A stretch of 64,000 bases of DNA from positions 186,001 to 250,000 of the forward strand of contig NZ_JOEA01000004.1 in the NCBI RefSeq assembly GCF_000719115.1, given 5' to 3'. The notes beneath the pieces are model-generated. The model was not told the DNA's origin. It saw only the letters and a list, made by a program, of their open reading frames with translations, and ran no database searches. A program made the translations under genes and the position numbers. Source of the stretch: Lentzea albidocapillata. Its GTDB lineage: Bacteria; Actinomycetota; Actinomycetes; Mycobacteriales; Pseudonocardiaceae. Numbering within the stretch: the stretch's first letter is position 1; each line of letters opens with the position of its first letter. Below are positions 4,276 to 42,594 of the stretch, piece by piece.

Positions 4276-5292
4276 ATGAGCTTCACCCGGATCGACACGC
4301 TCGACCACATGGATGTCGAGGGCGGGCCTGGCGCGCGGCTGCGCGTCGCCCGTGAGCGGGGCGAGGCGTTCCGGCGGGAGTTCGCCACGACCGGCACGCC
4401 GGACAGCATCGTCACGCGTGACCTGGTGACGCTGCCGTATCCCACGCGGTTCGGCCTGTTCAGGGCCTCGCGGGCGATCGCGCCGTTCCTGTCGATCACG
4501 AACCGGATGCTGGTGATCCGCTGGCACGACGACGGCCGCGAGCGCATCCTGCTGTTCGAGCCGAGCGACCACGAGTACGGCCGGTACACGCCGTACTTCG
4601 AGGACCTGTCCGGACGGACGCCGGACGTGATCGAGCGGCGCATGGTCAAGGTCCACGGCACCGTGCCCGGCCACCTGGAACGGCTCGGCATCGCACCCGA
4701 GGACGTCGACTACCTGATGTTCGACCACCTGCACACCCAGGACCTGCGGCGCTGGATCGGCGCCACGCCGTACTTCCCGAACGCCAAGGTGATCGTGCAA
4801 CGCGACGAACTGGCGGCCCTGAGCGAACTGCACCCGTTGCAGAAGCCCTGGTACCAGCCGGCGACCTACCGCGACCTGCCGGCGGAGGCGTTCCTGCCGA
4901 TCGACGGCTCGGTCGTGCTCGGCCCCGGCGTCGCGGTGGTCAAGACGCCGGGTCACGTGTTCGGCAACCAGAGCCTCGTGGTCAACACCTCGACCGGCAT
5001 CTGGGTGAGCAGCGAGAACGTGATCGCCGCCGAGGCGCTGACGCCCGAGCACTCGAAGCTGCCCGGCCTCGCGTCGTGGACGCGCCGGTGGCAGCAGGAG
5101 GTCGTGCTCAACGCGAACACCGTCGAGACCACCGCCGACCAGTACAACTCGATCATCCTGGAGAAGACGCTCGCCGACCGCAGCCAGGCCGACCCGCGGT
5201 TCCTGCAGTTCTTCCCTTCCAGCGAACTCACCGGCGCCTGGACCAACCCCGGCACCAGGCCCACGTTCAGCCACGGCCAGATCGTCCACTGA
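4276..5292 (+). CDS. Metallo-beta-lactamase-fold hydrolase
   Basis: This 338-residue protein carries the HxHxxD metal motif as HLHTQD (residues 151-156), after DVDYLMFD, and a later KTPGHVFGNQ segment supplying another metal His. The usual bridging Asp region reads SSENVIAAE, so the second metal site may differ from the norm. The ATG is preceded by GGAGGGG; an in-frame TTG 12 bases earlier is less likely because it overlaps that ribosome site. It forms an operon with the NTF2-like gene 11 bases downstream. The substrate is unknown; lactone or ester hydrolysis would be typical of soluble family members. Confidence 0.85.
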   Translation: MSFTRIDTLDHMDVEGGPGARLRVARERGEAFRREFATTGTPDSIVTRDLVTLPYPTRFGLFRASRAIAPFLSITNRMLVIRWHDDGRERILLFEPSDHEYGRYTPYFEDLSGRTPDVIERRMVKVHGTVPGHLERLGIAPEDVDYLMFDHLHTQDLRRWIGATPYFPNAKVIVQRDELAALSELHPLQKPWYQPATYRDLPAEAFLPIDGSVVLGPGVAVVKTPGHVFGNQSLVVNTSTGIWVSSENVIAAEALTPEHSKLPGLASWTRRWQQEVVLNANTVETTADQYNSIILEKTLADRSQADPRFLQFFPSSELTGAWTNPGTRPTFSHGQIVH

Positions 5293-5303
5293 GGAGCTCA
5301 GCG

Positions 5304-5864
5304 ATGCCCGACCGCTTCACCCTGCCGTCCGAGGAAGTCCTGCGGGCCCGCGAAAAGCTCGTGCTCGACCACTTCCGCGACGAGGTGGCGCACGACTGGG
5401 ACGCCACGCTCTCGACGTTCCCGCACCCGCACTACGAGGTCATCGCCCAGATGGTCGTGCACGACGGCGACAGCGCCGTCCGCCAGTACTACACCGACAC
5501 GCGCGTGGCGTTCCCCGACCAGCACCACGAGCTGATCTCGTTCCGGCACAGCGTCGACGCCGTGATCGTGGAGTTCTGGCTGATCGGCACGCACCTCGGG
5601 CCGTTGGGCAAGATCCCGGCGACCGGTGGCAAGCACCGCACGCGCATGAACGCGTACTTCATCTTCGACGCCGACGAGAACCTGGTCACCGAGCGGATCT
5701 ACTTCGACCAGCTGTCCGTGCTCAAGCAGGTGATCGGCGGCATCGACCGGCGCAAGCCGAGCGGGCTGCGCAAGCTGCTGCAGGTGTTGCGCGGGATGCT
5801 CGCGATGTCGGGCAGCCAGCCGGATCAGCGGCTCACCCGCACGACGCCGCCGTCGCTGGACTAG
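5304..5864 (+). CDS. NTF2-like (SnoaL/cyclase fold) protein
   Basis: This 186-residue protein looks like the NTF2/SnoaL alpha+beta barrel used by polyketide cyclases, ester isomerases and small hydrolases. Its features are AREKLVLDHF near the start, HYEVIAQMVVHDGDSAVRQY, FPDQHHELI, and a final strand with AYFIFDADENLVTERIYFDQ. Its ribosome site GAGGAG overlaps the stop of the MBL gene, so the two are co-transcribed and may act on one substrate. The stop codon shares the CTAG tetranucleotide with the stop of the convergent response-regulator gene. Confidence 0.75.
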   Translation: MPDRFTLPSEEVLRAREKLVLDHFRDEVAHDWDATLSTFPHPHYEVIAQMVVHDGDSAVRQYYTDTRVAFPDQHHELISFRHSVDAVIVEFWLIGTHLGPLGKIPATGGKHRTRMNAYFIFDADENLVTERIYFDQLSVLKQVIGGIDRRKPSGLRKLLQVLRGMLAMSGSQPDQRLTRTTPPSLD

Positions 5865-6466
5865 AGCCGGATCAGCTTGCGTTCCACGGCGGTCGTCACG
5901 GCCGCCGTCCGCGTCTCCACGCCGAGCTTCACGAAGATCCGCACCAGATGGGTCTTCACGGTGGCCTGGCTGATGAACAGCGCCTTCGCGATCTCCTTGT
6001 TCGCGAGGCCCTTGGCGAGGTTCTGAAGGATCTGGATCTCGCGTTTGCTGAGCTTCGGCGCGGGGTCGCGGACCTGGCCCAGCAGCCGTTGCGCGATGTC
6101 CGGGGAGAGCACGGTCTGGCCCGTCGACGCCGTGTGCACGGCCTTGGCCAGGTCTTCGGGGTCGCAGCCCTTGAGCAGGTAGCCGATGGCACCCGCTTCG
6201 ACGGCGCGCACGATGTCGGCGTCCGCGTCGTAGGTCGTCAGGATCACGACCTGCGGGCCGTTGTCCATGGCACGGATCTGCCTGGTGGCCTCCACACCGT
6301 CGATTCCCTTGCCCAGCTGGAGATCCATCAGCACGACGTCCACCGTGGACGCCTTGGTCAGGGACTCCTCGCCGGTCGCGGCCTCGATCACCTCGAAGTC
6401 GCGCGACAACAACCCGACCAGCCCGAACCGGACCACCGGGTGATCGTCGACCACCAGCACCCTCAT
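5861..6466 (-). CDS. NarL/LuxR-type response regulator, SenR-like
   Basis: This 201-residue two-domain regulator has an N-terminal receiver with the acidic pair D7/D8 and phosphoacceptor D48 (VVLMDLQ), followed by a C-terminal LuxR helix-turn-helix (LSKREIQILQNLAKGLANKE, ATVKTHLVRIF). Its ATG overlaps the kinase stop (ATGA), so kinase and regulator are translationally coupled. The divergent HbpS-type gene makes this arrangement resemble SenS-SenR-HbpS of Streptomyces, a haem and redox-stress sensing system. Candidate binding dyads lie in the 7426-7536 gap. Confidence 0.93.
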   Translation of the reverse strand: MRVLVVDDHPVVRFGLVGLLSRDFEVIEAATGEESLTKASTVDVVLMDLQLGKGIDGVEATRQIRAMDNGPQVVILTTYDADADIVRAVEAGAIGYLLKGCDPEDLAKAVHTASTGQTVLSPDIAQRLLGQVRDPAPKLSKREIQILQNLAKGLANKEIAKALFISQATVKTHLVRIFVKLGVETRTAAVTTAVERKLIRL

Positions 6467-7425
6467 GGCGTCGGCACCGTCACGGCCACCGCGGTTCCCT
6501 CCCCCGGCGCGCTCTCCACGGACACGGTGCCACCCAGCTCGGTGATGCGCCCGCGGATGGACGCCAGGCCGTAGCCGCGGCCCTCCTCCGGCTTCACCTC
6601 CTCCGGGTCGAACCCGCGGCCGTCGTCCACGACGTCCATCGTCACCGCGTCTCCCAGGTACGACAGCGTGATCGCCACCCGCCCGGCGCCCGAGTGCTCG
6701 AAGACGTTGGCCACGGCACCCTGCGCGACCCGCAGCAGCGCCACCTCGGTCTGCACGCTCAGGGCGTACGGGTCGCCGTCCACCTCCACGTGCGGGACCA
6801 GCCGGTGCAGCGCGTCGACCAGCGTGCCGTGGATCGGCGTCAGGTCGCGCACGAACCGCCGCGCCTCGCCCAGGTTCTCGCGTGCGACCTCGGCGGCTCT
6901 CCTGGTTTCGCCCAGGGAGAGCAGCAGGTTGATGCTGGAGAAGCCCTGGGCCAGGGTGTCGTGGATCTCGCGGGCGAGGCGTTGGCGTTCCTCCAGCACC
7001 CCGGCCTCGTGCAGCAGGCGGGCGCGGTCGAAGAACACCGCCGCCGTCAGCACCGCGACGCCCACCGGACCGAGCACCAGCGACCAGTCGAACGTCGTGG
7101 CCAGCCTGATCTGGGCCAGCACCACTGCTGCCGTCAGCACGGCCGCGATCGGCAGCGCCACTCGTGGCCTGAGCTGGCGCAGGCACTGGAAGAACAATGG
7201 GATCGCGCACCAGCCGAAGCTCGGCGCGAGCCACACCAGCACCAGCCACACGGAGAGCACGACCGGCAACGCCCGCGTCCACCGCACGCCCGCGGGATAG
7301 AGCGCGCCGAGAGCGAGAGCGAGGCCGAGCACGACCAGGTCGGCACCGTGGTACGCGACGTACCGCGCCGCCGACGCCGTCAACAGCACGTAGAAACCCG
7401 CATGCATCGCCCTGTGCAGCCACAC
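6463..7425 (-). CDS. Membrane sensor histidine kinase (HisKA_3 type), SenS-like
   Basis: This 320-residue kinase has four or five hydrophobic segments in the first 130 residues and no large extracellular domain. A HisKA_3 dimerisation box follows with phosphoacceptor H155 in LAREIHDTLAQ. The C-terminal HATPase domain has VANVFEHSG (N box), DDGRGFD (G1) and GYGLASIRGR (G2). GTG 7425 is taken as the start, with ATG 7407 as an alternative. The small membrane sensor and neighbouring HbpS-type gene suggest it senses signals through that secreted partner; this is inference from the Streptomyces precedent. Confidence 0.92.
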   Translation of the reverse strand: MWLHRAMHAGFYVLLTASAARYVAYHGADLVVLGLALALGALYPAGVRWTRALPVVLSVWLVLVWLAPSFGWCAIPLFFQCLRQLRPRVALPIAAVLTAAVVLAQIRLATTFDWSLVLGPVGVAVLTAAVFFDRARLLHEAGVLEERQRLAREIHDTLAQGFSSINLLLSLGETRRAAEVARENLGEARRFVRDLTPIHGTLVDALHRLVPHVEVDGDPYALSVQTEVALLRVAQGAVANVFEHSGAGRVAITLSYLGDAVTMDVVDDGRGFDPEEVKPEEGRGYGLASIRGRITELGGTVSVESAPGEGTAVAVTVPTP

Positions 7426-7461
7426 CTCGGCGACATTAGGCGACTCGGCAGGTCTGGCGGG

Positions 7462-7491
7462 TCAACCAATGGGTTGAACCGAGGTTCGACC
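7462..7491. promoter_or_regulatory. Overlapping dyads between the kinase gene and the HbpS-type gene
   Basis: TCAACC-aatg-GGTTGA (7462-7477) is a perfect 6-bp-arm inverted repeat. It overlaps GGTTGAACC-ga-GGTTCGACC (7472-7491), an 8-of-9 imperfect inverted repeat. Both lie in the short gap between divergent genes. They are candidate sites for the response regulator encoded at 5861-6466, controlling both directions. Confidence 0.5.
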
Positions 7492-7536
7492 ATCACCACC
7501 ATGGCACGCAGCCCTGAACAGGGAACCGTAGTAGCC

Positions 7537-8025
7537 ATGGACCTCAAGAAGATCGCAATCGCCACCCTCGTCGTGCTGAGCATCGGCGGCGGCTACGCGG
7601 CAGCCGACCAGCACACCACCACCCGCACGGAGAAGGTGCTGACCATCGACGCGGCAATCAAGGCCGCGCAGGCCACGCTCGACGCCGCCGAGAAGGAGAA
7701 CCAGCGCGTCACGGTCGCCGTCGTGGACCGCAGCGGCGACGTCGTGGTGCTGCTCGCCGGCGACGGCGCGGGCCCGCAGACCGAGGAGTCGGCGCGCCGC
7801 AAGGCGTTCACCGCGGTGTCGTTCAACGCCCCGACCTCGGAACTCGCCGGCCGTGTCACGGGCCAGGGCGCGACGCTGCGGGACATCCCCGGCACGTTGT
7901 TCCTGGGTGGCGGCGTGCCGGTGGCGATCGACGGCACGTCCGTCGCGGGCATCGGCGTCGGCGGCGCGCCCAGCGGCGACCTGGACGAGAAGTACGCGAA
8001 GGCCGGCCTCGCGACCCTGAAGTGA
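7537..8025 (+). CDS. Secreted HbpS/GlcG-family haem-binding protein
   Basis: This 162-residue protein has a short signal peptide (MDLKKIAIATLVVLSIGGGYAAA) and then the GlcG/HbpS fold. Family features are VLTIDAAIKAAQATLDAAEKE, VAVVDRSGDVV, RRKAFTAVSFNAPT, FLGGGVPVAIDG and AGIGVGGA. In Streptomyces reticuli the secreted octameric HbpS binds haem and modulates SenS. The divergent NarL-type kinase/regulator pair next door supports the same role here. The cytosolic GlcG relatives lack a signal peptide, which favours the HbpS reading. Confidence 0.85.
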   Translation: MDLKKIAIATLVVLSIGGGYAAADQHTTTRTEKVLTIDAAIKAAQATLDAAEKENQRVTVAVVDRSGDVVVLLAGDGAGPQTEESARRKAFTAVSFNAPTSELAGRVTGQGATLRDIPGTLFLGGGVPVAIDGTSVAGIGVGGAPSGDLDEKYAKAGLATLK

Positions 8026-35306: not shown

Positions 35307-35945
35307 CTAGAACACCTGCGACAGGCCACGCAGCGCGGCGGCGATCTGCTCGCGATGCCCTTCGAGGGTCTCCCTCGTGACGCCGTCCGCCGCGGCCCTG
35401 GCCACGTCGTCGGTGGCGACCTTGAGCACCGCGCTCATCGCGGCGGCCTGCACCCTCACCTCGATGGCGTTCCGCGGCAGCCCCGCCCGTTGCGCGAGCA
35501 CGTCCGCGAGCGCGTCCTCCGCCCGTTCGCGCAACATCAGGTACGGGGCGCGCAACGCCCGTTCGCTTTGGGTCAGCCGCACGACGGCGAGGACCGCTTC
35601 GATGTCCTCGTCGGACGCCGCGTCCAGCAACGGGCTGTAGGCCTCGCGCAGGTGGTCGATCAGCTCGAGTTCGCGCGGCCAGGCACGCACCACCGCGCAG
35701 AAGGCGTCGACCATCTTGGTCAGCAGCGGTTCGACGCAGCTCTCCTTGTGCGGGAAGTGGCGCCAGAACGTGCGTTCGGAGACGCCCGCGGCCTGCGCGA
35801 TCTGCTCGCCCGACGTGGCGGCGACGCCCTGCTCGGCGAACAACCGGACCGCGTGCCGCGAGAGGTCGAGGCGCTGACGCTGACGTTGCTCGTCGCTGAC
35901 CGGCGGCCGGCCACGGCGAGGCTTTTCGGTCGCAACGTCCGTCAT
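35307..35945 (-). CDS. TetR-family regulator divergent from the P450 gene
   Basis: This 212-residue regulator starts MTDVATEKPRRGRPPVSDEQ and has a TetR helix-turn-helix (SGEQIAQAAGVSERTFWRHFPHKESCVEPLL). It is divergent from the P450-ferredoxin pair across 74 bases with a TGGCA-N5-TGCCA dyad, so it probably represses that pair. The C-terminal ligand domain has no recognised class. The gene faces the small membrane protein gene tail to tail across about 95 bases. Confidence 0.92.
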   Translation of the reverse strand: MTDVATEKPRRGRPPVSDEQRQRQRLDLSRHAVRLFAEQGVAATSGEQIAQAAGVSERTFWRHFPHKESCVEPLLTKMVDAFCAVVRAWPRELELIDHLREAYSPLLDAASDEDIEAVLAVVRLTQSERALRAPYLMLRERAEDALADVLAQRAGLPRNAIEVRVQAAAMSAVLKVATDDVARAAADGVTRETLEGHREQIAAALRGLSQVF

Positions 35946-35984
35946 CGGGCGATTTAAGCACGTCACCCGACAGGCAACATTTAT

Positions 35985-35999
35985 TGGCACCATCTGCCA
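35985..35999. promoter_or_regulatory. Dyad TGGCA-N5-TGCCA between tetR and the P450 gene
   Basis: TGGCA (35985-35989) and TGCCA (35995-35999) are perfect 5-bp arms with 5 bases between them. The dyad lies 21 bases before the P450 start and 40 bases from the tetR start, a suitable place for repression of both. Confidence 0.45.
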
Positions 36000-36019: not shown

Positions 36020-37234
36020 ATGAGCATTGACGCAGAGCGCCTGAAGCTGCCGCTGGCCAGGCCGAACGTCCTCGACCTCGCTCCGCTCTACGAGGTGCTG
36101 CGGCGCGAGGCACCGATCGCGCCCGTGACGACGCCGGCGGGCGACCCCGCCTGGCTCGTGACCCGGTACGAGGAGGTCCGCCTCCTGCTGGGAGACAAGC
36201 GCTTCGGCCGTTCCCACCAGGAGCCGGAGAAGGCCTCCCGCATCTCGACCGCCGCCGTGCAGGACGGCCCGACCGGCGAGTACGCGACGGAGGAGGCCGA
36301 CCACACGCGCATGCGCCGCCTGCTCACGCCCGCGTTCTCCGCCAAGCGGATGCGGATGCTGGGCGAGAACATGGAGGAGCTGGTCGACAGCTGCCTGGAC
36401 GCGCTGATCGCCGAGCACGAGAAGACCGGCGTGGTCGACCTGCACCGCGGGCTCGCGTTCCCGTTGCCGGTAGCCATGATCTGCGGCCTGCTCGGCGTCC
36501 CAGAGGAGGACAACGAGCTGTTCGCGTCGCTGTCCGAGCGCATGGCGGGCACCGAGATCGGCGAAGAGTCGCACAAGGCGCGCGAGGAGTTCTTCCGGTA
36601 CATGGTCGGGCTCGTCGAATCCAAGCGCGGTGCGCTCGGCGAGGACGTGATCTCCGACCTCGTGCGCGCGCAGGCCGAGGACCCGTCGTTCGACTACGTG
36701 GAGATGGTCCGGCTGTGCGTCGGACTGCTGTTCGCGGGCCACGAGACCACGGTCAACCGCATCGGCCTGGGCGTGCTGTTCCTGCTCACCGACCGGTCGC
36801 ACTGGGACGCCCTCGTCGCCGACCCGGACGGCCGCGTCGACGCGGTGGTCGAGGAGGTCATGCGCCTCGGCGCACCCGGCGACCTCGGCCTGCTGCGGTA
36901 CGCCCGCGAGGACGTCGACATCGCGGGCGTGACCATCAAGGCAGGTGACGCGCTGGTCCTGTCGATCAACGCGGCCAACCGCGACGTGTCCGTGTACTCC
37001 GAAGCCGAGGAGTTCAACCCGGACCGTCCAGAAAGGACACACCTCGGTTTTGGCCATGGCGCGCACTTCTGCATCGGCGCGTCGCTCGCCCGCACGGAAC
37101 TGCGCGTGGTGTTCGCCGCGCTCGCCAAGCGCCTGCCGTCCATGCGGCTGGCCAAGGAACTCGACCAGCTGCAGGTCCGTGCGACGCTCACCGGCGGCGT
37201 GGCGGAGCTGCCCGTCACCTGGAGGTCGGCGTGA
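36020..37234 (+). CDS. Cytochrome P450 (404 aa) with its own ferredoxin
   Basis: This P450 has I-helix LLFAGHETTVN, the ExxR helix in VVEEVMRLG, and the haem loop FGHGAHFCIGASLARTELR. The length and features match actinobacterial CYP105/107-like soluble enzymes, many of which hydroxylate macrolides, fatty acids or terpenoids. ATG 36020 is used. The stop overlaps the GTG of a ferredoxin gene (GTGA), so the redox partner is co-translated. A TetR gene is divergent. Proximity to the sulfotransferase cluster allows a model in which it makes the hydroxyl to be sulfonated. Confidence 0.95.
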   Translation: MSIDAERLKLPLARPNVLDLAPLYEVLRREAPIAPVTTPAGDPAWLVTRYEEVRLLLGDKRFGRSHQEPEKASRISTAAVQDGPTGEYATEEADHTRMRRLLTPAFSAKRMRMLGENMEELVDSCLDALIAEHEKTGVVDLHRGLAFPLPVAMICGLLGVPEEDNELFASLSERMAGTEIGEESHKAREEFFRYMVGLVESKRGALGEDVISDLVRAQAEDPSFDYVEMVRLCVGLLFAGHETTVNRIGLGVLFLLTDRSHWDALVADPDGRVDAVVEEVMRLGAPGDLGLLRYAREDVDIAGVTIKAGDALVLSINAANRDVSVYSEAEEFNPDRPERTHLGFGHGAHFCIGASLARTELRVVFAALAKRLPSMRLAKELDQLQVRATLTGGVAELPVTWRSA

Positions 37235-37425
37235 ACATCGTGGTGGACCAGGGGAAGTGCGTCGGAGCCGGGCAGTGCGTGCTGGCCGCGGACGACGTGT
37301 TCGACCAGCGCGACGACGACGGCCTCGTCGACCTGCTGGACGCGAGCCCTCCGGCGGAGCGCCTGGCCGACGTCCGGCACGCGGCGGCGGTGTGCCCGGC
37401 CTCGGCGATCGCGGTCTCGGAGTGA
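37231..37425 (+). CDS. Small 3Fe-4S-type ferredoxin
   Basis: This 64-residue ferredoxin has three cysteines placed C-x5-C ... CP (residues 10, 16 and 54). The middle position that is His or Cys in many P450 ferredoxins is Gly, so a [3Fe-4S] cluster is expected. It overlaps the P450 stop by four bases and would pass electrons to it. A reductase is not encoded nearby. Confidence 0.9.
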   Translation: MNIVVDQGKCVGAGQCVLAADDVFDQRDDDGLVDLLDASPPAERLADVRHAAAVCPASAIAVSE

Positions 37426-37489: not shown

Positions 37490-39541
37490 TCACTCGTACC
37501 AGTCGCGGGACCACCGTTCGCGGCGTTCCTGCTCCCGGTCGATCCAGTCGCTGCCCTCCGCCGCGACGGCTTCGAGGATCGGCAGGGCCGCGTCGATGCC
37601 GGAGGTCTGCAGCGCCACGAGGAACAACTCGGACTCGTCCTCCAGCACGGAGTCGTTGGCGTTGCGGAAGTTCTCCGCGACGACGGTGATGTCGCGGCCA
37701 TTGACCAGGGTGAGGCAGAACCTGCGGCTGCGCAGCCGTTCGACCTCCCTGGTGCAGTCGCCCTCGCCTCGGGTGGCGCGCAGGCCGACCTCGGTGACGC
37801 TGGCGGACGCGAGGGCGTCGTAGCGGAAGAGGTTGCGGCGTTCGTTGCGCGCCTCTCCGGTGAGGAAGTTCAGTTCCACGCGCATTTCGCGCACGCCACT
37901 GCGGGTGAGCAGGAAGATCTGCACCTCGTAGTTCGAGTAACGCGGCGGACCGTGCAGCACCCTGGCGCGCTTCGCGCCGTTCGCGCCCTCGGTCATGACA
38001 ACGTGCGTCACGAGGTCATGCGTCGTGAGGTTGTTGCGGCGCACCAAATCGTTCTTCAGGCACACTTTGTCCATCGACAGCCAGCGGGCCATCTCGCCGT
38101 CGGACGGGCGGTCGGCCAGCAGCCGCAGCCATTCCTCGTAGCCCTGCGTCTCGGCGGCGAAGATCTGCTCGTCGTGGGCACGTGCCAGGGCACTCATCCG
38201 GTGCAGGCCGCGGATCTTCGTCACGCCCTTGACGACGAGGAAGCAGCCGGGAGCCAGGAAGATCGCCGCGCCGAAGCCGCCGGCGAAGACCAGTACGAAC
38301 AGTCCGGCGATGGCGGCGCCCATGCCCGCGCGGTACAGCATGGTGTCGCGTTCCGGCGATCGGACGGAGGTGTGGAACAACGCGTTGCTGCCCCAGCCTT
38401 CCGCCACCTTGAGGGCGTGCCAGCGCGCGAGCCAGCTCACGGCGCCCGCCGGAACCTGCGCGTTGCCGTAGAGAGCCACGAAACGGTGCTTGAGGTGCGC
38501 TCTGATGCCCGCGGTGTAGCCGGGCCAGTCCCCTGCGACGTGCGGCCGCGCCTCGGTGAACCGGCTGTCGACGATCCGGTGGATCTCCCGGACGAACGCG
38601 GTCGACACCCAGTGGCCCGGTGAGCGCGGCTCCGGCTGGCGTGGCGGCGGCGTGACCTGGTTCAGCCGGATCTGGCTCCACATCGACGCGCCGGCCCGCC
38701 ACGCGCCGTGATGGGCCATGAGAATGGCACCACCGATGATCATCGGCAGGGCGAGCAGGACGCCGAGCACCGACGTGCCGAAGAAGCTGCTGCTCAGGCC
38801 GATGAAGGCGGCGAACCCGCCGAAGCCGACGGGAAGCCAGTCCCTTGGCTCGGGCTTCGTGGCGGCCGCCACGAACGGGCGTGGCGGCGCGGGCTCCGCT
38901 TCGAAGAACTTCCATGCCCGCTCGGCGCGGCCGTTCGACATCCGCTGGGTCACGACGCGGTGGGCGTAGACGCCTTCCAGGGCGGCCTGCGTGACGCCGT
39001 CCTGGATCGTGGCGAGGTGCTGGGTGATCTCTTCCTGGCGGTCCGGGGGCAGCGCGCCGAACGCCGCAAGGACCTCGTCCACGTTCTCGCGCGGACGGTG
39101 TGCCCCGGATTCACCGCGCACGAGGTGCAGCAGGCGCCACACCAGGGTGAACGCGTCCTGCCACGGATCGTCCGGCAGCGACTGCGCGATCTTCCGCGCG
39201 TCGCGGACGTTCTTGAACAGCTCGCCGCCCACCTCGCCGCAGGAGCGTCCGCTGACGACGGAAAGCGCGTAGTAGTAGGCCCTTTGCGAGGTGACATGGC
39301 CTTCCCGCAGCAGGTCACCGAAGAGGCGTTCGGCCTCTCGAGGGACACCGGCGGCGAGGAAGTTGCGCGCGACCTCGTTGCGGCGCTCGGGCGGGTCGCC
39401 CTGGTTGACGTGGTAGATCGCCTCGACGTGGAACGCCGTGTCGCCGTAGTTGACCGCGTTCTGCTGGCCGACGGTGGCGCCCGGCTGTGCGACGTTGTGG
39501 TTGTCCATGGGCGGCCACATGCCGTCCGCTGGGTGGTTCAT
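37490..39541 (-). CDS. Four-helix membrane protein with N-terminal GATVGQQN motif, unknown function
   Basis: This 683-residue protein is not a recognised family. Residues 10-34 hold the motif PPMDNHNVAQ-GATVGQQNAVNYGD, followed by helical sequence (about 37-200: HVNQGDPPERRNEVARNFLAAGVPREAERLFGDLL). Two hydrophobic hairpins follow, at about 236-277 and 405-440, then a charged region and a C-terminal beta-rich domain (about 545-645). The ATG overlaps the nucleosidase stop (ATGA), and that nucleosidase ends with the same motif. The shared short motif suggests that the two proteins bind each other homotypically, as in effector/receptor pairs of conflict systems. It may be a membrane target or regulator of the nucleosidase. 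Confidence 0.75.
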   Translation of the reverse strand: MNHPADGMWPPMDNHNVAQPGATVGQQNAVNYGDTAFHVEAIYHVNQGDPPERRNEVARNFLAAGVPREAERLFGDLLREGHVTSQRAYYYALSVVSGRSCGEVGGELFKNVRDARKIAQSLPDDPWQDAFTLVWRLLHLVRGESGAHRPRENVDEVLAAFGALPPDRQEEITQHLATIQDGVTQAALEGVYAHRVVTQRMSNGRAERAWKFFEAEPAPPRPFVAAATKPEPRDWLPVGFGGFAAFIGLSSSFFGTSVLGVLLALPMIIGGAILMAHHGAWRAGASMWSQIRLNQVTPPPRQPEPRSPGHWVSTAFVREIHRIVDSRFTEARPHVAGDWPGYTAGIRAHLKHRFVALYGNAQVPAGAVSWLARWHALKVAEGWGSNALFHTSVRSPERDTMLYRAGMGAAIAGLFVLVFAGGFGAAIFLAPGCFLVVKGVTKIRGLHRMSALARAHDEQIFAAETQGYEEWLRLLADRPSDGEMARWLSMDKVCLKNDLVRRNNLTTHDLVTHVVMTEGANGAKRARVLHGPPRYSNYEVQIFLLTRSGVREMRVELNFLTGEARNERRNLFRYDALASASVTEVGLRATRGEGDCTREVERLRSRRFCLTLVNGRDITVVAENFRNANDSVLEDESELFLVALQTSGIDAALPILEAVAAEGSDWIDREQERRERWSRDWYE

Positions 39542-40422
39542 CGGTTCTCCCGCGTCACGTTCATGGTGAAGTCGCCGGTGTTCACGCCGTTCTGCTGGCC
39601 GACGGTGGCGCCCGTCGAGGCCATGTTGCGGTTGCGGATCGGCGGCAGTTGCCCGGCCGTTTTCCTGGCGTTCTCCGGTGCCTCGTGGATCGCGGCGGCG
39701 AGGGCGACGGTGAAGGCGGCGGCGTTGCGCGCCGCCCGCCGCTGACCGCCCTGGCCGTCCGTGACGGACTTGGTGCCGTCGGCGTGGTCGCTGATGCCGC
39801 GCACGGTCGCCGTGGCGACCCGGCCGGCGAGGTGCGCCGCGAGGGCGGACCCGGCGCTCTCCATCTCGACCGCGACGGCGTCGTTGTAGTTGCGGTGCAG
39901 GGCGTTCGCCACCGGCGAGGTCGTGGAGTTCAGCACCACGTCCCCTGCGGCGATCGCCTCGAAGTGGACCTCTGGTCGTTGCGCCTCACCGGGTGGCGCG
40001 AGCGGCTCGCACCAGGCGCGGGTGCGGCGGATCCGGCGGGCGAGTTGTTCCAGGTCGTGCGAGATCTCCCAGGAACGGGGCCGTACGAGGAACTCCTCGT
40101 CCTCGCTCTTGCCGCCGTGGTAGGCGTAGACCTTGGTCGCGACCACGACGTCACCGATCTCCAGCTTGGGCCGCAACCCTCCGGCGATCCCGGAGAACAG
40201 CACCGCGGAAGGCGAGAACTCGGCGATCGCCCGCTCGGTGAGCGCGGCGGCGGCCAGGGTCCCCTGCCCGGTCACTCCCAGGGCGACCCGCCGATCCGGC
40301 CGGCCGGCGAGCGTGCCGACGTCGAACAGCGTGCCCTGGGCGTGCCGGTGCTCGCGGACGTCCACCAGGTGCTCGAGCACCGCTTCCTGCTCGACCGGCA
40401 GCGCGGTCAGAATCACGATCAT
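39538..40422 (-). CDS. MTA/SAH nucleosidase-type enzyme with C-terminal motif shared with its neighbour
   Basis: This 294-residue protein is a PNP_UDP-type nucleosidase. Conserved features are TALPVEQEAVLE (base-binding Glu region), FSGIAGGLRPKLEIGDVVVATKVY, VEMESAGSALAA (the catalytic Glu pair region) and VRGISDHADG (catalytic Asp). After the domain, residues 260-284 carry the motif PPIRNRNMAS-TGATVGQQNGVNTGD, 17 of 25 identical to the start of the next protein. ATG 40422 is chosen at the first strand MIVILTAL. Such phosphorylase-fold domains occur as effectors in bacterial and fungal defence receptors. Ordinary housekeeping nucleosidases lack this tail. Confidence 0.85.
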   Translation of the reverse strand: MIVILTALPVEQEAVLEHLVDVREHRHAQGTLFDVGTLAGRPDRRVALGVTGQGTLAAAALTERAIAEFSPSAVLFSGIAGGLRPKLEIGDVVVATKVYAYHGGKSEDEEFLVRPRSWEISHDLEQLARRIRRTRAWCEPLAPPGEAQRPEVHFEAIAAGDVVLNSTTSPVANALHRNYNDAVAVEMESAGSALAAHLAGRVATATVRGISDHADGTKSVTDGQGGQRRAARNAAAFTVALAAAIHEAPENARKTAGQLPPIRNRNMASTGATVGQQNGVNTGDFTMNVTRENR

Positions 40423-40676: not shown

Positions 40677-41174
40677 TCAGATCCGGCGAAAGTGGACATC
40701 CGCCAGGGATTCCACGCGATGACGAAAGCCGAACCTGCTGACGACCGCATCCGAGACGATGGCGCGGTGGTCGAACGCGACCGCGGCGTGCACGTTGAAG
40801 AACTCGGTCAGAGCGACCCAGCGGGCGGCCGCGGCGTCCCCTCCCTCCGTCGCGGGAGGAGCCCCGGTGAGGTACCCGTGGAACGCGACGCTCTCGATGA
40901 CGCCCCGCGGGTCACGGCCGGGGGTCTTGTAGGAACCGAAACGCTTCAGCCGATCCTTCGCCACCTCGATTCCCGTCTCCTCGCGGACCTCGCGTGCCGC
41001 CGCGTCGACTGCGCGCTCCCCCGGTTCCACGAAGCCTCCGGGGAGTGCCAGCGCGCCTTGGAACGGGTCTTTTCCGCGCTGTACCAACAGAACCGCCAGC
41101 GCGCCGTCCTGTTTGGTGAACAGCACGACGTCCGCGGTCAACCGGCGCCGGCCGGGTTCCGTGTCATCAGCCAT
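40677..41174 (-). CDS. NUDIX hydrolase, NrtR-regulated
   Basis: This 165-residue protein has a complete NUDIX box (GGFVEPGERAVDAAAREVREETGIEV), preceded by ALPGG, and an N-terminal strand region VVLFTKQDGALAVLLVQRG. It is likely an ADP-ribose pyrophosphatase or related nucleotide-sugar hydrolase. Two NrtR-type operators lie directly upstream (41192-41263), and nrtR itself is the next gene upstream in the same direction. This links it to NAD turnover, as in known NrtR regulons. Confidence 0.9.
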   Translation of the reverse strand: MADDTEPGRRRLTADVVLFTKQDGALAVLLVQRGKDPFQGALALPGGFVEPGERAVDAAAREVREETGIEVAKDRLKRFGSYKTPGRDPRGVIESVAFHGYLTGAPPATEGGDAAAARWVALTEFFNVHAAVAFDHRAIVSDAVVSRFGFRHRVESLADVHFRRI

Positions 41175-41275: not shown

Positions 41276-41977
41276 TCAGGAAGCCGCCGGCCGCGGGCGC
41301 ATCATCGGCGGCGACAGCGTGGACGCGCCGCCCGCTCGGTACAAAGCAGCCGGCCTGCCGTTGGGACTGGGGCGTTTCGCGCCACTCGGCTCGACGAAGC
41401 CGGCGGACTCGGTCACCTTGCGGTGGAAGTTCGGCTTGTCCAGGTCCACACCCCAGACCGCCTCGTAGACCTCGCGGAGCTCGCCGATGGTGAACTCGGC
41501 GGCGCAGAAGGCCGTCGCGATCGTGCGGAACTGCAGTTCGGCACGGGCCAGTTCCAGGGCGTCGCCGAGGATTTCGTCGTGGTCGAACGCGAGGCCGGAG
41601 CGTTGCACTTCGGACACCGGGAGCCAGTGCGCCGCCCGTGCGTCGGTGCCGGCCGCGGGGAAGGGGAGGTCCGGGGCGATCGCCAGATAGGCGCAGGTCA
41701 CCACGCGGGGACGCCGGGGGTCGCGGTCCGGGGCCGAGTAGACGCCCACCTGTTGCAGGTGGAGCTGCGTGGCGTCCAGACCGGTTTCCTCGGTCAGCTC
41801 CCGCGCGGCTGTTTCGTCGAGGCTCTCCTCGCCTCGCAGGAAGCCACCGGGCAAGGCCAGTCGTCCCGCGAAGGGGTCGTTGCCGCGTTCGACGACGAGG
41901 GCGCAGAGAACGCCGTCGCGGATCGTCAGGATCACGAGGTCGGCAGTGATCGCGACTGTCTGCCGGGGGCGGCTCAT
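41276..41977 (-). CDS. nrtR: NrtR-type NUDIX-related transcriptional regulator
   Basis: This 233-residue protein joins an N-terminal NUDIX domain (box GGFLRGEESLDETAARELTEETGLDA) to a C-terminal winged helix (about residues 150-220: FTIGELREVYEAVWGVDLDKPNFHRKV and ESAGFVEPSG). This is the NrtR layout; such proteins sense ADP-ribose or related NAD metabolites and repress NAD genes. The operators downstream in front of the NUDIX gene carry the expected GT-N7-AC core. ATG 41977 is used as the start. Confidence 0.88.
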   Translation of the reverse strand: MSRPRQTVAITADLVILTIRDGVLCALVVERGNDPFAGRLALPGGFLRGEESLDETAARELTEETGLDATQLHLQQVGVYSAPDRDPRRPRVVTCAYLAIAPDLPFPAAGTDARAAHWLPVSEVQRSGLAFDHDEILGDALELARAELQFRTIATAFCAAEFTIGELREVYEAVWGVDLDKPNFHRKVTESAGFVEPSGAKRPSPNGRPAALYRAGGASTLSPPMMRPRPAAS

Positions 41978-42000
41978 GGCACGGAGCCTACAAGGCGGGT

Positions 42001-42030
42001 GGAGGCCGACAGAGGGATGCGTCGGCCTCC
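42001..42030 (-). terminator. Terminator after the EF-hand gene
   Basis: GGAGGCCGAC and GTCGGCCTCC form a perfect 10-bp stem around a 10-base loop, 10 bases past the EF-hand gene stop. It also separates that gene from nrtR downstream. Confidence 0.75.
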
Positions 42031-42039
42031 GCGCCCAGG

Positions 42040-42594
42040 TCAGATGCGCTGCAGTGCCCTCGGGTACAGCCAGCTGCCAGGCGTGTCCTCCGCCGGGTTC
42101 GTGTAGTAGTCGCGCACGGCCGTCACGTATTCCTGCACGCTGATCGCGCCGTCGCCGTCGGTGTCGAGGTGCGTGAACGCCCGGCCGCACTCCTCCGCCG
42201 ACAGCCCGCGCGCCTTCAGCAGGACCCCGAACTCGGACGCGTCCACCCGGCCGTCGCCGTTCGTGTCCATGAGGTCGAGCAGGGACTGGACGACCTCGAG
42301 GAAGTCCATGTTGATCGGGCCGCCCTCGACGAACGCCTCGTTCATGGCGTCGCGGTACTCCACCGGGCCGATCCTGCCGTCGCGGTCTGTGTCGCAGTGT
42401 TCGGCCAGCATCTCCCAGAACCGGTCGTAGGCCTCCACGAGCTCACGGCCGCGCTCCGAGGACGCCGGTTCGCCGAACGCCTGCAGCAGCCGGTTGGCCA
42501 GCGCGTAGATGTCCGCTAGTTCGATGACGCCGTTGCGGTTGACGTCGTAATGGGCGAAGGTCGAGTCGATCCTGTGCTGCAGCACCTGCTTCAT
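42040..42594 (-). CDS. Calcium-binding EF-hand protein (calerythrin-like)
   Basis: This 184-residue protein has four EF-hand loops: DVNRNGVIELAD, DTDRDGRIGPVE, DTNGDGRVDASE and DTDGDGAISVQE, each with acidic or Asn ligands at positions 1, 3, 5 and 12. The overall layout matches calerythrin-like bacterial calcium buffers or sensors. No signal peptide or membrane segment is present, so it is cytosolic. The first loop is the least standard (Asn at 3, Arg at 4). The role is inferred as calcium buffering or signalling. Confidence 0.92.
   Translation of the reverse strand: MKQVLQHRIDSTFAHYDVNRNGVIELADIYALANRLLQAFGEPASSERGRELVEAYDRFWEMLAEHCDTDRDGRIGPVEYRDAMNEAFVEGGPINMDFLEVVQSLLDLMDTNGDGRVDASEFGVLLKARGLSAEECGRAFTHLDTDGDGAISVQEYVTAVRDYYTNPAEDTPGSWLYPRALQRI

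Follow-up and report, generated by a model that had tools for sequence, protein, structure and literature searches.

A 64,000-nucleotide stretch of the Lentzea albidocapillata genome (contig NZ_JOEA01000004.1, positions 186,001 to 250,000, hereafter the window; the genome is 8.64 Mb in size) carries a nucleosidase gene whose C-terminal tail is nearly repeated at the N-terminus of the membrane protein encoded directly behind it. What does such a short shared segment do in two neighbouring proteins? The genes lie on the minus strand and are transcribed in the order NrtR-like NUDIX-winged helix-turn-helix (wHTH) protein, second NUDIX protein, nucleosidase (294 residues, 39538..40422) and membrane protein (683 residues, 37490..39541), and the last two open reading frames (ORFs) overlap by 4 bp at the nucleosidase stop codon. 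The operon is probably an effector/receptor system, in which the membrane protein, as the proposed sensor or receptor, would recruit and activate the nucleosidase, as the proposed effector, or in some loci a TIR protein, via homotypic assembly of the shared motif, with the NUDIX genes attached.

Residues 260-284 of the nucleosidase (PPIRNRNMASTGATVGQQNGVNTGD) and residues 10-34 of the membrane protein (PPMDNHNVAQPGATVGQQNAVNYGD) are identical at 17 of 25 positions, exactly as a preliminary description of this DNA had claimed, and the best 25-mer obtained from 200 shuffles of the nucleosidase reached 12. The motif is annotated at residues 262-287 of the nucleosidase (IRNRNMASTGATVGQQNGVNTGDFTM; 39562..39639, minus strand) and at residues 12-37 of the membrane protein (MDNHNVAQPGATVGQQNAVNYGDTAF; 39431..39508, minus strand). 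The window version, with the core GATVGQQN, is a local form within a larger motif set that includes, for example, VGIQAxxVxNSTVY and VGVQAGxIHGxV. The exact 27-bp repeat reported earlier was also recovered, at 39457..39483 in the membrane-protein gene and at 39588..39614 in the nucleosidase gene (both read on the plus strand), within a 76-bp repeat of 79% identity. It had been taken to mean that the motif spread recently or is under strong selection. Codons at identical residues in the window agree at 14 of 19 sites against 11.2 expected from codon usage; as this is near expectation, the DNA repeat alone is no evidence of recent spread, and copying within the window was rejected as unneeded.

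The two genes belong together far beyond this strain. A nucleosidase search of 249 Pseudonocardiaceae genomes (expectation value, E, <= 1e-40) located 79 places in 69 genomes, the Lentzea genome included, and all 79 neighbourhoods were examined. The membrane protein lies directly downstream in 66 of them. Counted from the start codon nearest the nucleosidase stop, which a script picked, 60 of these loci show an overlap of 4 bp and five show one of 1 bp; one locus with a short ORF has a gap. The contigs of 84,980 GTDB species were also scanned with the membrane-protein alignment and one peptide pattern. The best 80 of the 125 relatives found are spread over many genera of Actinomycetes. A nucleosidase gene lies directly before 71 of them, and three more stand behind a nucleosidase as the second copy in a tandem of two. 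A class-level draw contained the membrane protein in 15 of 246 genomes, leaving aside two fragment matches (G455:C159 and G336:C1:1301138); all 14 loci besides the window have an adjacent nucleosidase and a NUDIX ORF, with raw motif scores of 34 to 81. The three sets partly overlap, and four partial loci were kept unchanged: the membrane-protein ORF is short in L056 and in L074, the nucleosidase of L098 contains one stop, and L166 lies at a contig edge. The operon is accessory and patchy, both in the family, by its nucleosidase, and in the class, by its membrane protein. In L036, L038, L046 and L111-L113 one nucleosidase is followed by membrane proteins in tandem, and each of these has a motif version of its own.

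A single split followed by drift would leave the motifs of partners no closer to each other than to those of other loci. For 66 pairs, the mean Smith-Waterman motif score was 56.6 for cognate and 36.4 for non-cognate combinations, compared with 24.8 for shuffled tails, and 61 of the 66 cognate pairs exceeded the 99% shuffle level. When whole clades were permuted, none of 20,000 permutations reached the observed value with either 23 or 12 clades, and the same held for the short-tail enzymes taken separately (12 clades, 0 of 20,000). The best 80 of the 125 GTDB relatives gave 60.6 for cognate against 44.6 for non-cognate pairs, and 74 of the 80 pairs passed the 99% shuffle level, in a set whose permutation ignores relatedness. 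At the level of single columns, both partners have the same residue between the conserved V-G and Q in 81 of 109 pairs, where 26 would be expected; for the position after Q the count is again 81 of 109, with 43 expected. This test ignores relatedness, picks the best anchor and omits 37 of 146 pairs as duplicates or lacking an anchor. The range of versions is illustrated by L069 (STVGIQASHVENSPVF in the membrane protein, GQVGIQAAHVTGSPVW in the nucleosidase), L061 (VQVGVVNGGAVF and AIQAGVINGGIWF) and L103 (VGIDADNVVGSNVYQDS and VGIQAVNVVGSNVYQNS).

Repeated gene conversion between the neighbouring genes, with no functional contact of their products, could also keep the two motifs alike. It has in its favour the exact 27-bp repeat in the window and a codon identity that, over all pairs, lies somewhat above expectation (506 identical codons at 926 identical residues against 437.5 expected; 49% for non-cognate combinations). 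Most pairs nevertheless agree in residues and differ in codons, the window itself stays near expectation, and copying alone would not hold the segment through wide divergence and a change of effector, so we regard this explanation as very improbable. The moderate excess suggests that some gene conversion may have taken place, probably as a minor contributor at most, and that the agreement of the motifs is kept mainly at the protein level.

The motif is also specific to these genes. In the whole Lentzea genome, a profile built from 25 motifs, which is not a sensitive one, gave its two best matches in the tail of the nucleosidase (E 3.4e-9) and at the N-terminus of the membrane protein (E 9.4e-9); the next match had an E of 0.56. 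Searching 120 family genomes with this profile yielded 30 matches at E <= 1e-4 in 19 genomes, all in operon genes and none in unrelated proteins; 27 fall, by position, in known nucleosidase or membrane-protein genes, and the other three are two lone membrane proteins (L221, L222) and one decayed operon (L223). It had been raised beforehand that the segment might be an ordinary low-complexity linker or might occur widely outside paired genes. It is no ordinary low-complexity linker. Within the family and at this threshold it is not widespread outside them, and it is conserved, co-diverging and confined to operon genes in the genomes searched with the profile. The L223 locus (about 4793-7354) is a decayed operon copy, with an open NUDIX frame, a fragmented nucleosidase and membrane protein, and a motif that can still be read.

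A change of effector provides a further line of evidence. Loci L118 (Actinomadura) and L125 (Catellatospora) encode a TIR protein with a matching motif directly upstream of the membrane protein (PF13676, E 1.2e-10 and 4e-7), and in L118 the TIR protein carries VVNNATGNAQVGIQGIVHGNPRFD where its membrane-protein partner has VHNEAGDHATIGVQGIVYGDVRYE. The genes before both TIR genes have HTH domains, not NUDIX. Three other loci (L122, L124 and L127) have a small motif-bearing protein, in which no enzyme domain was found, and L166, although cut by the contig end, keeps a matching motif. Motif scores in these six loci without an intact nucleosidase range from 43 to 60, above the 99% shuffle level of 41. 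Replacement by TIR with the motif kept means that the motif stays matched when the catalytic domain changes. Of the interpretation given in the preliminary description, the motif pair is supported, as a conserved and co-diverging feature that persists with a TIR partner; recent DNA-level spread in the window is not supported. The NUDIX proteins, the domain layout of the membrane protein and the range of motif versions had been missed there. By eye, the extension behind the motif of the small proteins in L122, L124 and L127 resembles that of the long-tail nucleosidases.

Pairing and covariation of this kind are expected of any direct contact. The motifs could accordingly be a static docking tag. 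The two proteins would then meet in an ordinary heterodimer contact by which the nucleosidase is anchored at the membrane or kept inactive, with no amyloid-like assembly or propagation of a signal. Partners in such a contact need not look alike, yet both sides are near-copies of each other across very different versions of the motif, which fits homotypic stacking. Both motifs also lie in segments predicted with low confidence, and their arrangement is that of the BASS signalosomes discussed below. A docking tag is for these points unlikely, and we infer that the motifs bind each other homotypically.

The proposed effector is an enzyme with an intact active site. PF01048 covers residues 2-241 of the window nucleosidase (E 3.3e-34) and was found in all 29 nucleosidases scanned. 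The fold is that of MTAN, the methylthioadenosine/S-adenosylhomocysteine (MTA/SAH) nucleosidase, with 3dp9 as the best Foldseek match (E 3.9e-21). All 29 relatives examined have E11, E188 and D212, which presumably serve catalysis and base binding; these residues line up with those of a solved MTAN, in agreement with the earlier view that the catalytic residues are intact. Beyond about residue 250 the confidence of the structure prediction is low, and this tail is predicted outside the enzyme fold, where it had been placed before. With 91.2 bits against a cut-off of 169 for NF004079 and 45.1 against 73.8 for TIGR01704, the protein stays below the curated cut-offs of housekeeping MTAN. Long-tail forms also occur, for example at L068:6036-7169(+), and one of them, among the 29 scanned, matches Trypco2 below the cut-off. 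Another relative, L055:5933-7819(+), has RCC1 repeats at its C-terminus.

The NUDIX genes appear to go with this enzyme and not with the membrane protein. The first window protein has 233 residues from an ATG at 41977 (41276..41977, minus strand), within an open frame that reaches 42190 (41276-42190). In this longer ORF, PF00293 scores 62.4 bits (E 5.7e-17; cut-off 21.1) and the NrtR_WHD family PF21906 scores 56 bits (E 4.6e-15; cut-off 27). Its best solved relative is AraR 5bs6 (E 3.1e-29), and it also matches 3gz5, a NUDIX protein and Shewanella NrtR. The second NUDIX protein (165 residues; 40677..41174, minus strand; PF00293, E 5.9e-25) lies between this regulator-like protein and the nucleosidase. 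A NUDIX-family ORF is found within 1.35 kb upstream of 117 of the 123 distinct paired nucleosidases, on the same strand in 103 cases (83 of them at 0 to 39 bp) and divergent in 14, and the match extends to the end of the wHTH in 113 of the 117. A divergent NUDIX ORF also stands beside 5 of 14 distinct nucleosidase-domain ORFs that have no membrane protein. None was found in the six loci without an intact nucleosidase (one of them, L166, being cut by the contig end). Of the 166 family ORFs, 42 retain the strict NUDIX box, as do, by eye, the two window copies; PADLOC matched the NUDIX proteins to the candidate PDC-S07 only. The NUDIX-wHTH protein is probably a regulator of the operon. It shares the combination of NUDIX and NrtR_WHD domains with the NrtR/AraR regulators and differs from them in being linked to a nucleosidase that bears a signalling motif.

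NrtR-like regulators control metabolism. Together with the frequent NUDIX neighbours, the MTAN fold and the conserved active-site residues, this might argue for a metabolic operon, in which a salvage or MTA/SAH-type nucleosidase stands under NrtR-like control, the membrane protein is unrelated or serves transport, and the motif arose incidentally from the overlap or past fusion of the genes. Against it stand the patchy occurrence (69 of 249 family genomes for the nucleosidase, 15 of 246 class genomes for the membrane protein), nucleosidase scores below the housekeeping cut-offs and the loci where TIR replaces the enzyme and the motif is still matched. A purely metabolic role is hence improbable.

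In the membrane protein, the proposed receptor, the N-terminal motif is followed by a TPR-like helical domain (about residues 48-200; 38942..39400), two hydrophobic hairpins amounting to four transmembrane segments (about residues 234-283, 38693..38842, and 397-446, 38204..38353) and a PH-like beta domain (about residues 505-625; 37667..38029), all on the minus strand. Both hairpins are supported by hydropathy and by helices in the predicted model, and both recur in the hydropathy average of 30 relatives. Their loops are short and uncharged, which suggests that the other domains face the cytosol. The model has a mean predicted local distance difference test (pLDDT) score of 77, and the low-confidence N-terminal 42 residues, predicted to be disordered, contain the motif. 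A Pfam scan of the window protein gave no family at E <= 1, and a profile of 27 relatives had no match among PDB chains. No NTPase family was among the Pfam matches listed (25 of 37 families) for 30 membrane proteins, and a Walker A pattern occurs in 6 of 132 distinct family members. The only match to the membrane protein in plasmid records was a Streptomyces protein (31% identity over 59%, E 7e-23) and phage records gave none, so that a mobile origin of the operon was set aside.

The arrangement can be compared with several known systems. In the BASS signalosomes of filamentous actinobacteria, effectors end in a short motif that recurs at the N-terminus of a neighbour encoded by an adjacent or overlapping gene, the receptors are NLRs, and the effectors are BELL or, less often, CHAT or TIR proteins, as far as the available part of PMC7889193 describes them. 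The present operon shares the position of the motifs, the adjacent or overlapping genes and the use of TIR effectors. It differs in its receptor, in its usual effector, a nucleosidase, with TIR in the minority, and in the attached NUDIX genes. The receptor is a TPR-like/4-TM (transmembrane)/PH-like membrane protein and not an NLR, the Pfam matches listed for it including no NTPase family; the comparison was made by description. The accessible portion of PMC9815663 describes PUASM as a C-terminal motif on a fungal PNP_UDP effector that is matched at the N-terminus of a NACHT NLR encoded nearby, and reports that PUASM peptides formed amyloid-like fibres. Enzyme, motif position and neighbouring partner are alike, but PUASM is fungal and pairs with a NACHT NLR; its pattern as given there, FxGxGxQxxGxGxF, is absent from both window motifs, and the window partner has no NACHT match.

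At the level of the motif itself, the window core VGQQNGVN shows by eye the GxQxGxN part of the PP pattern NxGxQxGxN, in the form quoted in the part available of PMC9815663. By eye, too, the window motif resembles the NLR-side, BASS3-like Methanothrix peptide KSRFDQRGQKVIGQQINVAGDATLP, which aggregated according to the available text of PMC8086366. PF17046, the PP family, had no match in 29 nucleosidases nor among the Pfam families listed (25 of 37) for 30 membrane proteins, and matched the small motif proteins of L122 (E 0.027) and L127 (E 0.081) below the cut-off. The core tetrad of RHIM is (I/V)Q(I/V)G; it is absent here, both window motifs reading ATVG at that place. Membership of the motif in the RHIM/PP group was rejected on both counts.

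The enzyme also has relatives among defence effectors. ATP nucleosidases such as that of Detocs are PNP-family defence effectors, and the PN-superfamily effector of CBASS is a PNP/MTAN-type domain as well. The present operon has no recognisable partner gene of CBASS or Detocs; a short motif joins the enzyme to a membrane protein. The NTP-dependent conflict systems of actinobacteria use nucleoside-phosphorylase-superfamily and TIR effectors and contain Trypco domains (Kaur et al. 2020, PMC7159879, in the portion available). Both effector types recur here, as does Trypco2 in the sub-threshold match mentioned above, but no NTPase switch, MoxR-vWA or VMAP component was recognised in the operon. 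Housekeeping MTA/SAH nucleosidases share the PNP_UDP_1 fold and the active-site E, E and D, and differ in that the present enzyme falls below their equivalog cut-offs. Among the titles and beginnings of abstracts that full-text searches listed, none describes the pair, the receptor or an operon of NUDIX, nucleosidase and membrane protein, most subscription papers and preprints lying outside this search.

A mechanism can be proposed for the effector/receptor operon. The membrane protein would sense a trigger at the membrane or inside the cell, upon which its N-terminal motifs would cluster. The motif of the nucleosidase would then co-assemble with them homotypically, perhaps, and most likely, as a beta-arch amyloid like those of the BASS, PP and PUASM signalosomes. 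Gathered in this way, the nucleosidase might turn active and cleave a pool of nucleosides or nucleotides, possibly those of adenine, which would stop growth or kill the cell. The NUDIX-wHTH protein would probably sense a nucleotide-derived metabolite and control expression of the operon. Amyloid form, activation by assembly, the substrate and the part given to NUDIX are put forward more tentatively than the binding of the motifs to each other. The same applies to a possible role in defence, which we infer from the functions of TIR and PNP-family domains elsewhere (PMC12881547 and PMC7159879, in the parts available).

Several observations weigh against this proposal. Beside the lone membrane proteins of L221 and L222, a stretch of 12 kb contains neither a nucleosidase match (E <= 1e-3) nor another match to the motif. 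Five of the 66 and six of the 80 cognate pairs fail to exceed the 99% shuffle level, and the core is discordant in L037 and L041, where the enzyme has GQQN and the partner GQQI. The observed value was reached in 41 of 20,000 permutations with 6 clades and in 174 of 20,000 for long-tail enzymes taken separately (5 clades); with so few clades these values are near the lowest possible, which is about 1 in 720 and 1 in 120, respectively. In the long-tail enzymes the motif is internal, since an extension some 110 residues long comes after it. The codon excess over all pairs belongs here as well. PADLOC matched the nucleosidase to its general PN-superfamily effector model (E 1e-17) and to the candidate PDC-M60C (E 5e-21), and none of its models matched the membrane protein (three members scanned). 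Finally, among the families listed for the operon's neighbours other than NUDIX, no defence gene recurred.

Nucleosidases without the membrane protein form a separate group. They account for 13 of the 79 Pseudonocardiaceae places, and 11 of these have more than 200 residues after the enzyme domain. For five of them, the neighbouring proteins were compared with the tail. At L052:4931-6466(-) and L067:4861-6219(-), nucleosidases fused to a longer C-terminal part share a segment with the WD40 protein encoded beside them (score reached by 0 of 200 shuffles); this segment differs from the operon motif (for example, GNSVGDIVATGPVNIKQRVVNYAGRHP). The nucleosidase tail of L063, at about 6879-7928 (minus strand), is RHIM-like (ISGQLVIGTGNQV), and the divergent STAND-like neighbour at L063:7854-10412(+), with PF25199 below the cut-off, resembles it in an N-terminal stretch (score reached by 3 of 200 shuffles). 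The tail-like segment of the NB-ARC-TPR neighbour in L059 was at chance level (22 of 200 shuffles), and the neighbours of L055 showed none (196 of 200 shuffles reached the score).

Beside the operon, the window contains a TetR-family regulator (35307-35993, minus strand), an adjoining 416-residue ORF that by eye resembles a cytochrome P450 (35984-37234, plus strand) and, behind the latter, a 64-residue ferredoxin (37231-37425, plus strand).

More broadly, the operon may represent a class of NLR-free, membrane-anchored, amyloid-type signalosomes spread across Actinomycetes, with a TPR-like/4-TM/PH-like receptor, an exchangeable effector, a motif that acts as a co-evolving insulating address and, in the nucleosidase version, a nucleotide-sensing NUDIX protein; we give this wider view about an even chance. 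Bacterial amyloid signalling has been described for NLR receptors, to judge from the available part of PMC7889193, and the same logic would here operate with a receptor that sits in the membrane and has no detected NTPase domain. A nucleosidase effector in bacteria would parallel the pairing reported for fungal PUASM motifs in the excerpted source. The more than 100 natural pairs (123 distinct paired nucleosidases and 109 distinct anchored motif pairs) constitute a data set on motif-encoded specificity, and the exchange of TIR and nucleosidase effectors makes the modularity directly testable. Such joint change of the two tags would be expected if the switch depended on the proteins sticking to one another, akin to fungal and animal immune signalling.

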